From Aequorivita viscosa (GTDB taxonomy: Bacteria > Bacteroidota > Bacteroidia > Flavobacteriales > Flavobacteriaceae), in contig NZ_FNNS01000012.1 of assembly GCF_900106795.1 (NCBI RefSeq), forward strand, positions 1 through 64,000: a DNA stretch of 64,000 bases, written 5' to 3'. Positions 16,993 to 18,872 of the stretch are shown in pieces. How positions within the stretch are numbered: the first letter of the stretch is position 1; the number at the start of each line of letters is the position of its first letter. Position numbers and translations under genes: made by a program. Under the pieces are notes generated by a model. That model was not told where the DNA came from, did not search any database, and worked only from the letters and a program-made list of their open reading frames with translations.

Positions 16993-17931
16993 CTACATTA
17001 AAAATTTACCGCTAATAGATTTGTTTGCGTTTACACTCAACATAACATCTGCAAAAAGCTTAGCACAAGTTATTACTCTAATTTTATCATTCGGCTTTGT
17101 TGGGATAGAATCTGAAACAATCAATTCTAATAACTGCGATTTTTCTATTCGCTCGTAAGCATTTCCTGAAAGTAATGGGTGCGTACAAACTGCACGAACA
17201 CTTAAGGCTCCGCGCTCCATCATTAAGTCGGCTGCGGTAGTAAGCGTTCCAGCAGTATCTACCATATCATCAACTAGTACTACATTTTTTCCTTTTACAT
17301 CTCCAATTAGTTCCATATGCGAGATAACATTCGCTTTTTCACGCTGCTTATAACATATAACCACATCGCTATTCAAGAATTTGGAATAGGCATACGCACG
17401 TTTTGAACCTCCCATATCTGGTGATGCAATGGTGAGGTTTTCAAGATTTAGACTCCGTAGGTATGGCAGGAAAATGGTTGATGCGAAAAGGTGATCTACT
17501 GGTTTTTCGAAGAATCCTTGAATTTGATCTGCGTGCAAATCCATAGTAATAATTCGAGTAGCACCTGCGGCTTCAAGCATTTTTGCAACTAGTTTTGCCG
17601 CAATCGGTACTCTTGGTTTGTCTTTTCTGTCTTGGCGTGCCCAGCCAAAATAGGGTAGCACGGCAGTGATATGTCTAGCTGAAGATCTTTTCGCAGCATC
17701 AATCATAAGCAAAAGCTCCATTAGGTGGTCGCTGTTTGGGAAAGTAGATCCTATCAGAAATACGCGGCTTCCACGCACCGACTCTTCAAAAGACGGCTGG
17801 AATTCGCCATCGGAGTAGTGAGAAGTTATGACTTTTCCTAATGGAATTCCAAAGGCTTCGGCGATATCTTTTCCAAGGGCTTCACTTTGTTTACAGGCAA
17901 AAATCTTAGGTTCGGGGGCAAGAGTTGGCAT
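16993..17931 (-). CDS. prs: Ribose-phosphate pyrophosphokinase (PRPP synthetase)
   Basis: It makes PRPP from ribose 5-phosphate and ATP for purine, pyrimidine, His and Trp synthesis. The 312-residue sequence has the N-terminal SDGEFQPSFEESVRG region, the ATP-binding PYFGWARQDRK segment and DLHADQIQGFF. The PRPP loop is VVLVDDMVDTAGTLTTAADL near residues 214-233. Length and motif order are normal for class I enzymes. It stands upstream of rplY with a 269-base gap. A minus-strand TACCTTTG box 26 bases before the ATG is a good promoter. Confidence 0.96.
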   Translation of the reverse strand: MPTLAPEPKIFACKQSEALGKDIAEAFGIPLGKVITSHYSDGEFQPSFEESVRGSRVFLIGSTFPNSDHLMELLLMIDAAKRSSARHITAVLPYFGWARQDRKDKPRVPIAAKLVAKMLEAAGATRIITMDLHADQIQGFFEKPVDHLFASTIFLPYLRSLNLENLTIASPDMGGSKRAYAYSKFLNSDVVICYKQREKANVISHMELIGDVKGKNVVLVDDMVDTAGTLTTAADLMMERGALSVRAVCTHPLLSGNAYERIEKSQLLELIVSDSIPTKPNDKIRVITCAKLFADVMLSVNANKSISGKFLM

Positions 17932-17957
17932 AATTGTAGGTTTTGATGGATACGTCG

Positions 17958-17965
17958 CAAAGGTA
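17958..17965 (-). promoter_or_regulatory. prs -7 promoter box
   Basis: TACCTTTG on the minus strand is a perfect TAnnTTTG match, 26 bases before the prs ATG. No exact TTG is seen at the usual distance. Confidence 0.5.
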
Positions 17966-18035
17966 AAGATTAATGGTTAGTCATCTTAAAAAAAATACGC
18001 AACAAAATTTTTCGAGATATTCTAAAATATTTACT

Positions 18036-18043
18036 TATTTTTG
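18036..18043 (+). promoter_or_regulatory. tRNA-Leu -7 promoter box
   Basis: TATTTTTG matches TAnnTTTG and lies 11 bases before the first base of the mature tRNA-Leu. Confidence 0.6.
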
Positions 18044-18054
18044 CAACCCCAATT

Positions 18055-18136
18055 GCTCGAGTGGCGGAATTGGTAGACGCGTTGGATTCAAAATCCAATG
18101 TCGCAAGACGTGCGGGTTCGATTCCCGCCTCGAGTA
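18055..18136 (+). tRNA. tRNA-Leu (anticodon CAA)
   Basis: This 82-base tRNA has acceptor arms GCTCGAG and CTCGAGT (one G-T pair) with discriminator A. The anticodon arm is TTGGA-TTCAAAA-TCCAA, giving anticodon CAA. The variable arm is long (TGTCGCAAGACGT), as expected for leucine, and the T-arm is GCGGG-TTCGATT-CCCGC. No CCA is encoded. It is closed by an intrinsic terminator and followed by a GIY-YIG gene and a broken second copy of its 3' half. Confidence 0.95.
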
Positions 18137-18138
18137 CG

Positions 18139-18177
18139 AAATCCCTTTACGACTTATCTCGTTCAGGGATTTTTTTT
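18139..18177 (+). terminator. tRNA-Leu terminator
   Basis: AAATCCCT (18139-18146) and AGGGATTT (18165-18172) form an 8-bp stem followed by a T-run, 2 bases after the tRNA. The end of its T-run overlaps a TATATTTA sequence (18177-18184) that could act as the -7 box of the next gene. Confidence 0.8.
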
Positions 18178-18187
18178 ATATTTAATT

Positions 18188-18439
18188 ATGTTTTTTGTTT
18201 ATGCCATTTCAAGTTTGTCCAAAAACTATATTTATGTCGGAATGACCGATGATATTGACCGTCGTTTGAAACAGCATAACGGAGGCTATGAAAGAACTAC
18301 AAAGCCGTATTGCCCATATATATTACTTTATTCCGAAGTTGCGGGCAATAGGGTTGATGCAAGATTGCGCGAGAAGTATTGGAAATCAGGAACTGGGAAA
18401 AGACAACTTCGAAAAATGAGGGATTCCTTAAATAAGTAG
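18188..18439 (+). CDS. Small GIY-YIG endonuclease-domain protein
   Basis: The 83-residue protein is a stand-alone GIY-YIG (URI-type) nuclease domain with nothing added. VYAI at residues 4-7 and YIYVG at 14-18 form the GIY-YIG core. DDIDRRLKQHN supplies the conserved arginines (25/26), and RLREKYWKSG supplies the metal-binding Glu62. Such domains cut DNA with one divalent metal ion. I chose the ATG at 18188; a longer open frame runs back into the tRNA gene and is an artefact of tRNA translation. Its TAG stop ends on the first base of a second tRNA-Leu 3' fragment. This suggests a tRNA-targeted mobile unit of 360 bp. Confidence 0.82.
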   Translation: MFFVYAISSLSKNYIYVGMTDDIDRRLKQHNGGYERTTKPYCPYILLYSEVAGNRVDARLREKYWKSGTGKRQLRKMRDSLNK

Positions 18440-18552
18440 CGTTGGGTTCAAGATCCAATGTCGCAAGACGTGCGGGCCTGCCTGTCGTGCCTTCGGCAGG
18501 CAGGCCTGCCTGCCGAAGGCACGCAGGCAGGTTCGATTCCCGCCTCGAGTAC
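18439..18552 (+). pseudogene. Broken second copy of the tRNA-Leu 3' part
   Basis: Bases 18439-18476 repeat 18079-18116 of the tRNA-Leu with two A-to-G changes, exactly 360 bp downstream. Bases 18532-18552 repeat the remainder, from the T-loop to one base past the discriminator. A 55-bp palindrome interrupts the T-arm between the two parts. The 5' half (acceptor and D arm) is missing, so it cannot be a functional tRNA. Confidence 0.88.
18477..18531. repeat. 55-bp near-perfect palindrome inside the tRNA-Leu remnant
   Basis: The left arm of 28 bases and right arm of 27 bases are exact reverse complements except for one extra T in the left arm (position 18484 or so). The sequence is built from CCTGCC and GGCAGG blocks around GAAGGCA and is far more GC-rich than its flanks. 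It splits the T-stem GCGGG from TTCGATT. The GAAGGCA core recalls the hairpin at 8389-8406. Confidence 0.85.
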
Positions 18553-18558
18553 TGATAA

Positions 18559-18600
18559 AAAAACGCATTTATTTGATTCACAAATAGATGCGTTTTTATT
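18559..18600 (+). terminator. Long terminator after the tRNA-Leu remnant
   Basis: AAAAACGCATTTATTTG (18559-18575) and CAAATAGATGCGTTTTT (18581-18597) form a 17-bp stem with one T-G pair and a 5-base loop. It is probably the original terminator of the ancestral tRNA-Leu gene. Confidence 0.82.
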
Positions 18601-18872
18601 TTGGTAAATTGTACCTACATAGTACCGACTTTAGATTAATTTCAATTGTTTTCCTAGTTCAAAAGAGGTTTTTTAACCATAAATATTCAATCTGTCTCCA
18701 ACTAATAAACCTCATAAACTCATTTAGCAATAAGTTAGTAAGGTTTTTTTGGTAGTGGCGTAAGTTCACATTAATTTCGCTTTCTAGTTTATAGCTGGAA
18801 ATACCTGTTAACTATTTGTAACTCAATAGAGGTAAATTTGGATTCCGTGCTACTATTTTTGAATATTTACAG
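18601..18872. other. Intergenic stretch before the deaminase gene
   Basis: No gene is seen. Two TAnnTTTG matches lie near its end: TAAATTTG at 18833-18840 and TATTTTTG at 18854-18861, the latter 11 bases before the deaminase ATG. Either could be its promoter. Confidence 0.45.

Follow-up and report, generated by a model that had tools for sequence, protein, structure and literature searches.

A GIY-YIG nuclease gene seated between tRNA-Leu and a hairpinned tRNA-Leu half in Aequorivita viscosa, a member of a family of candidate minimal mobile elements in Bacteroidota

In this work, a short GIY-YIG nuclease unit was analysed in the window, that is, the whole 64,000-nucleotide stretch of Aequorivita viscosa DNA (NCBI RefSeq assembly GCF_900106795.1, contig NZ_FNNS01000012.1, positions 1 to 64,000, forward strand), and it is one member of a large family that is widespread in Bacteroidota. 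Members of this family lie next to a tRNA gene, mostly with a half of the same tRNA on the other side of the nuclease gene, and these orphan halves mostly carry a palindrome whose class goes with the clade of the nuclease and not with the tRNA. This recurrent arrangement with clade-matched hairpins suggests a minimal mobile element of an undescribed kind. On balance, we infer that an Slx1-type nuclease works with cognate palindromes, cleaving and moving with tRNA genes as its home.

The anatomy of the window's unit is given in Table 1. ARAGORN, Rfam and alignment bore out the order of intact tRNA-Leu, GIY-YIG gene and broken 3' half that an earlier note, made from the letters of this DNA, had described, and the coordinates agree with it that the nuclease stop codon (TAG, after 83 amino acids) ends on the first base of the repeat. 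The repeat had been called exact; its spacing is indeed exactly 360 bp, but two bases differ, and the two remnant pieces together (nt 25-83) match the intact tRNA-Leu at 57 of 59 positions. The remnant has a score of 97.3, and the highest among 30 shuffles was 17.2. When the genome was searched with tRNA-Leu(CAA), the other matches were the remnant pieces and a tRNA-Leu(TAA). A terminator had been placed after each copy; the one after the second copy was also listed by the terminator scan, whereas the one after the first (arms at about 18139-18146 and about 18165-18172) was seen by eye alone. The palindrome is a clean insert that splits the remnant. Under a strict pattern, four units of this palindrome type occur in the 3.5-Mb genome, two in the window's remnant and two at places elsewhere; by a looser pattern, the places elsewhere number three. 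No tRNA was called at either of the two other strict-pattern loci, nor was one found in the loci extracted for the three other GIY-YIG matches of the protein search in this genome. A group I or group II intron at the unit was rejected, since the tRNA is complete and, over positions 17900-18700, nothing but tRNA reaches its Rfam gathering score.

Table 1. Features of the nuclease unit, in window coordinates.
Feature	Position	Strand	Evidence
Intact tRNA-Leu(CAA), host tRNA of the unit	18055..18137	+	ARAGORN; Rfam RF00005, 61.3 bits
Terminator-like inverted repeat after the intact tRNA	18139..18172	+	Read by eye; absent from terminator scan list
GIY-YIG nuclease gene, 83 aa, Slx1/UPF0213 type by comparison	18188..18439	+	PF01541; sequence and structure comparison
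tRNA-Leu remnant, nt 25-62	18439..18476	+	95% of 38 identical
55-bp CCTG-class palindrome in T arm of remnant, nt 62/63	18477..18531	+	Alignment; pattern search
tRNA-Leu remnant, nt 63-83	18532..18552	+	Alignment
Terminator after the remnant	18559..18597	+	Listed by terminator scan

By sequence comparison and a predicted model, the nuclease is of the Slx1/UPF0213 type. The window protein matches PF01541 with 53.6 bits against a cut-off of 22.6 (E 2.8e-14), and the Y, R and E columns are conserved in A1, a profile built from 19 proteins. The best PDB sequence matches were 1ywl, 1zg2 and SLX1. Among fold matches, 7wme, 1zg2 and SLX1 came ahead of I-TevI, none of them at E <= 0.001. The model, with a mean pLDDT of 95.1, has AtHIGLE, UPF0213 and SLX1 as its nearest structures and I-TevI at rank 12. 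The term "homing-endonuclease type", used in the earlier note, is not supported, as UPF0213 and SLX1 are the nearest solved structures and I-TevI is far weaker. In the section consulted of a study of the superfamily (PMC1564403), the Slx1 cluster is without the C-terminal Asn and the homing nucleases fall in the other lineage; the A1 alignment has no invariant or nearly invariant Asn after E62. Slx1 is described, in the excerpts available, as cutting branched DNA, and these excerpts describe no mobile or tRNA-seated role for the Slx1/UPF0213 nucleases, which are closest here in both fold and sequence. Values of dN/dS were 0.06-0.26 in 13 of 15 pairs and 1.23 in one near-identical pair, with one pair not computable, and 0.14 for the window gene against locus L035; the gene is thus under purifying selection in most of the pairs.

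The association with tRNA genes was first seen in a scan of genome contigs with the window protein, which was blind to tRNAs and gave 26 loci. An intact tRNA lies within 1.5 kb in 21 of the 22 loci L005-L026, the exception (L016) having tRNA-like remnants, and L027-L030 are short partial matches, among which L029 adjoins a tRNA-Leu. Searches with the A1 profile detected members in 129 of 397 genomes of the host's family (E <= 1e-12) and, across the phylum, in 91 of 296 (E <= 1e-13), and 80 further stretches were extracted from the family search; L036 and L039 were dropped as copies of L008 and L010, and L002-L004 were set apart as controls. A tRNA on the same strand lies within 200 bp in 123 of 130 units, and one on the opposite strand in none. 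Relatives lying away from tRNA genes had been named beforehand as evidence against a tRNA-targeted unit, and they are few: six of the 130 units have no intact tRNA near, and on reading, four of these (L016, L078, L133 and L141) show tRNA-like remnants and two (L130 and L134) do not. L134 (G349:C4:41596-44820) lies between short inverted repeats and seemingly interrupts a coding gene, not a tRNA.

A half of the same tRNA lies across the gene, above all 30 shuffles, in 111 of the 124 units with an intact tRNA within 700 bp, or in 110 of 123 without L035, a copy of L006 that stands in the main remnant, tree, tRNA-distance and class counts. Relatives thus do lie between a tRNA and its own fragment, as had been expected, and the geometry with a 3' half holds for the window, which is type A (intact tRNA, gene, 3' half); among relatives, however, the 3' half is found in just 21 of the 111, and the other 90 are type B (5' half, gene, intact tRNA). 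No remnant above the shuffles was found in 13 of the 124 units, including five of the six tRNA-Asn units. In the tRNA-Asn(GTT) subgroup (L128, L138, L139, L142, L143 and L144), a distance of about 120-155 bp separates the tRNA from the gene that follows it. Of the 45 units in the phylum set, 11 lack an intact tRNA within 700 bp, and a remnant above the shuffles is present in 31 of the 34 others; this set holds fewer than 45 independent units owing to the duplicates L199/L220, L217/L230 and L198/L225, and L224 was excluded from it for want of an open-frame match of 60 bits. It adds Arg(CCT), Arg(CCG), Leu(CAG), Ser(GCT), Ser(GGA), Cys and Val to the host tRNAs. Moreover, three relatives adjoin tRNAs in Patescibacteria-type records. 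Three relatives on contigs listed as viral in IMG/VR were read as adjoining tRNA-Arg (L271), following a hairpinned tRNA 5' half (L272) and preceding a hairpinned 3' half (L270).

As a control, 30 loci were picked by PF01541 score from 25 relatives. Among those with an A1 score below 59 or no match, one of 27 (L252) was near a tRNA, as against two of three beside a tRNA among those scoring at least 59. This control understates the reach of the habit, since in G679, of the same genus, arrays in tRNA-Val, tRNA-Met and Arg(TCT) are made up of nucleases with scores of about 30, so that the habit extends beyond A1-like proteins. One such locus (L276, G679:C1:1927000-1930900) has five GIY-YIG genes of another subfamily arrayed in tRNA-Val, and its remnants have a TCCCGA..TCGGGA hairpin in place of the anticodon arm; two of them are called tRNA-Gln by ARAGORN.

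The palindrome of the window's remnant is not incidental, a point that the earlier note had missed: among the 111 remnants, 96 have a clean insert of at least 12 nt, the class of which goes with the nuclease clade. Of these 96 inserts, 84 match or surpass the best 5 of 100 shuffles in folding (83 of 95 without L035). The insert position is within 1 nt of a named stem boundary for 96 of 128 inserts, with boundaries chosen after inspection of the data. At its lowest threshold, a scan for perfect stems gave hairpins in 41 of the 99 windows of type B and in 21 of the 495 that served as controls; it missed mismatched hairpins, and the alignment-based insert test was therefore used instead. Uninterrupted tRNA 3' halves served as a control for hairpins (L151, L273 and L274); L273 and L274 had been selected for being ungapped, and the unbiased hairpin-free control is L151 alone. 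A role of the hairpins in RNA structure received no support from the strand-asymmetry test, in which stability showed no bias for the transcribed strand (34 vs 47). Solo palindromes were also seen in tRNA-matching stretches (L174, L177, L190 and L191), with no nuclease noticed in 620-732 bp.

The matching of palindrome to nuclease was examined on a tree of 116 nucleases, 115 of them different, with many forks unresolved and rows below 60 aa left out. Hairpin class was taken from the outer bases of the longest insert in each row, was set by inspection for 13 rows (12 counted), and was too unclear in 8 rows, which were left out. Over 96 rows, the class changes 6 times on the tree, compared with a mean of 18.1 when permuted within tRNA isotype, and none of 500 permutations was as low; for the 29 Arg rows, there are 3 changes against 12.2, again with none of 500 as low. 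The tRNA isotype labels also track the tree, with 22 changes vs 68.9 when shuffled. Furthermore, in some cases related nucleases in different tRNAs have a remnant of their own tRNA and the hairpin class of their clade. Within the single genome G226, the hairpins of the Leu, Met and Arg elements differ in sequence and are all of the CCTG class, and that of the Ala element is of the CCCG class.

At the level of whole genomes, the comparison covered the CCTG and CCCG classes, the others being too few, and its counts include shared ancestry. The clade sets consist of extracted loci only, so that other nuclease-bearing genomes are counted among the others; G124, G085 and G076, which the tree lacks, do not enter the final counts for either class, and G253, a mixed-clade row, is in the CCCG count and out of the CCTG count. 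Of 25 CCCG-clade genomes, 20 have CCCG palindromes, vs 15 of 372 others (p 6e-20). As the CCCG pattern was drawn from element hairpins, those outside located units were counted separately, and they occur in 11 of 25 vs 14 of 372 (p 1.5e-8). No link to CCTG-only genomes was found for CCCG palindromes (3 of 35 vs 32 of 362). On the other hand, 15 of the 35 genomes with CCCG palindromes fall outside the CCCG set, and G340 and G225, which are rich in them, have no nuclease at E <= 1e-12. At least three CCTG palindromes occur in 31 of 40 CCTG-clade genomes vs 43 of 357 others (p 5e-18), with 5 of 19 vs 69 of 378 for CCCG-only genomes (p 0.37). Any CCTG palindrome is present in 81 of the 129 genomes with a nuclease at E <= 1e-12 vs 57 of the 268 without. 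Within genera, nuclease-bearing genomes have the palindrome excess in 18 comparisons vs 5, with 3 ties, and this excess vanishes after two palindromes are deducted per genome (14 vs 8, p 0.29). Common ancestry by itself may account for the link between hairpin and nuclease.

Alleles without the gene were compared in 15 same-genus comparisons of an occupied tRNA-Leu with a tRNA-Leu lacking the nuclease (L054 being used twice), and the upstream flank is common to both alleles in them. In the two closest (L054/L162 and L056/L169), both flanks align at 88-92%, the left homology stops at tRNA nt 24, where the hairpin begins, and the right homology restarts at the intact tRNA or five bases earlier; from the coordinates, the added DNA is 333 and 318 bp, respectively. 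The tRNA of the occupied alleles shows no visible recoding: it equals that of the compared allele over its full length in 5 of the 15 and over nt 8-44 in 13, so that a target lying there would not be destroyed as in classical homing. In the window's own genus, the same prs-flanked site holds an intact tRNA and no unit in G027 and G254. The earlier note had looked to such strains, and had named conservation of the locus across distant genera without any empty-site allele as counting against it; these alleles, together with relatives that occupy the same tRNA or one of many further tRNAs beside a matching half, support its idea of a minimal tRNA-targeted unit. The gene-free alleles L155 and L159 retain a hairpinned 5' half, and these halves are scars. 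The gene-free alleles could be precise losses by recombination between repeats, and gain and precise loss are indistinguishable from such allele pairs. In G254, a hairpin-free tRNA-Leu 3' half from nt 25 (L151, G254:C1:1227106; L146) lies about 24 kb from the intact tRNA, and its sequence reads as if left by an integrated island.

Tandem arrays repeat the nuclease gene only. L133 (G174:C34:5488-11269) has eight copies following the 3' part of a tRNA, the extracted stretch showing no intact tRNA, and L220 (G618:C1:118600-123700) has five equal-scoring copies 450 bp apart at tRNA-Leu(CAG), the latter likely being a recent tandem amplification. Between species, the gene is less alike than the prs flank in 265 of 382 pairs and clearly the opposite in only 9, so that much of the distribution may be old descent, and this general divergence of gene and flank counts against frequent recent movement. 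Transfer, as judged from element against flank identity, was accordingly rejected as mostly of the opposite sign, and its best candidate (L005/L006) sits in a mosaic of high-identity tracts. Plain decay is disfavoured by the tandem arrays, by purifying selection and by related nucleases in different tRNAs keeping their hairpin class.

We hypothesize that a single-domain Slx1-type GIY-YIG gene would lodge in a tRNA gene with duplication of part of it, such that one full tRNA survives and an orphan half is left on the other side. The orphan halves, 5' in type B and 3' in type A, carry palindromic hairpins mostly at the stem boundaries of the tRNA fold. Both the cognate palindrome and folded tRNA DNA may be recognised by the nuclease as branched substrates; cuts would fall near junctions of single- and double-stranded DNA, and repair of the break could copy gene and palindromes into new tRNA sites. 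The duplication would let the element live inside an essential gene, and solo palindromes elsewhere might be its non-autonomous products, as REPs are to RAYT transposases, with an unrelated enzyme. In RAYT systems, the palindrome sequence is matched to the enzyme lineage. The unit resembles REP/RAYT (TnpA_REP) systems in that one enzyme gene lies next to short palindromes, solo palindromes are scattered elsewhere and the palindromes are matched to the enzyme lineage, the likeness here being one of association between palindrome and enzyme, not of binding; it differs in that the enzyme is a GIY-YIG nuclease, not a Y1 HUH transposase, and is seated in tRNA genes. In its fullest form, held tentatively and as somewhat short of probable, the proposal is a transposition-like Slx1-type system with its own palindromes, parallel but unrelated to REP/RAYT, which would read folded tRNA DNA, restore the tRNA by duplication and be the source of some scattered palindromes of Bacteroidota. 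The proposal gives no account of how the host tRNA escapes cutting.

An alternative to which we give a minor but real chance is a mobile open reading frame (mORF) of the homing type, whose nuclease cleaves a tRNA gene not yet invaded, the element being copied into it along with a replacement tRNA part and the hairpins being secondary insertions kept for disabling the spare half. It accords with the geometry, the gene-free alleles and the tRNA-specific nuclease clades. In the parts consulted, fungal mitochondrial mORFs likewise have a nuclease gene in an essential gene whose duplicated end restores it (PMC3630166), and T4 segB, a free-standing GIY-YIG homing endonuclease gene, lies between tRNA genes and has a tRNA-intergenic target (PMC2988022). 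The duplicated host-gene part beside the nuclease gene is shared with mORFs by 111 of 124 units, but the imported end is not diverged here (57 of 59 in the window, whole tRNA identical in 5 of 15 comparisons), and the present elements have a bacterial tRNA target, 5' halves too, an Slx1 lineage and hairpins. SegB, for its part, is from a phage, and the consulted part of its paper mentions neither tRNA halves nor palindromes (PMC2988022). Homing of this kind is further at odds with a nuclease outside the homing cluster and with nt 8-44 of the tRNA being unchanged in 13 of 15 comparisons, and it leaves unaccounted for both the match of hairpin class to clade within one tRNA type and the matching palindromes elsewhere in the genome. 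It is improbable that unrelated machinery moves the palindromes as common REP-like repeats, which then end up in tRNA fragments that are neutral, even though solo palindromes do occur outside tRNA remnants and REP families are described as widespread in prokaryotes (PMC3733652, consulted in part). Inserts in 96 of 111 remnants, with a class matched to the nuclease clade, argue against it. Moreover, RAYT as the palindrome mover was rejected for seven of nine palindrome-bearing genomes searched, which have no Y1_Tnp (PF01797) match at E <= 1e-5, and none of eight Y1 loci in three genomes has a strict-pattern palindrome; the window's own genome, which is besides these nine, has three Y1_Tnp matches.

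A toxin-antitoxin or other RNA-level system, in which tRNA would be the substrate of the nuclease and the hairpinned half would serve as an RNA decoy or leader, appears quite unlikely. The tracking of tRNA isotype by nuclease clades would fit it, as would a type B gene probably sharing one transcript with an essential tRNA; the absence of a hairpin stability bias for the transcribed strand does not, nor does the keeping of hairpin class by related nucleases in different tRNAs, and the nearest relatives of known structure are structure-specific DNA nucleases. Least credible of all is the scar of an integrase island with the nuclease gene as leftover cargo. The distant 3' half of G254, from nt 25 of the same tRNA, is of the kind that such an island leaves, but that half has no hairpin, 5' halves make up 90 of the 111 remnants, the added DNA is just 333 and 318 bp in the two best comparisons, and arrays repeat the nuclease gene only. 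Unlike a tyrosine-integrase island, the window's unit has no integrase, the nuclease being the sole open reading frame between the two tRNA copies. A further likeness is found in rRNA insertions of CPR bacteria, where, in the sections consulted, GIY-YIG genes lie in non-intron insertions of structural RNA genes, most of them at the top or base of stem-loops (PMC11270868). These differ in having an rRNA host, and their authors put GIY-YIG outside spread by homing (PMC11270868); neither "tRNA gene" nor "palindrom" occurs in the text of that paper. Among the titles and opening lines of abstracts examined in the open-access literature, no GIY-YIG genes seated in tRNAs of cells, and none paired with palindromes, were found.

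If the proposed Slx1-type system with cognate palindromes is true, a large bacterial phylum would harbour a self-contained mobile unit of about 320-360 bp. It would give a role to standalone Slx1-type nucleases and an origin to some scattered palindromes. Annotation is concerned as well, as two hairpinned tRNA-Val remnants in L276 are given the wrong tRNA name. The system would also be a way to inhabit essential tRNA genes without killing them.
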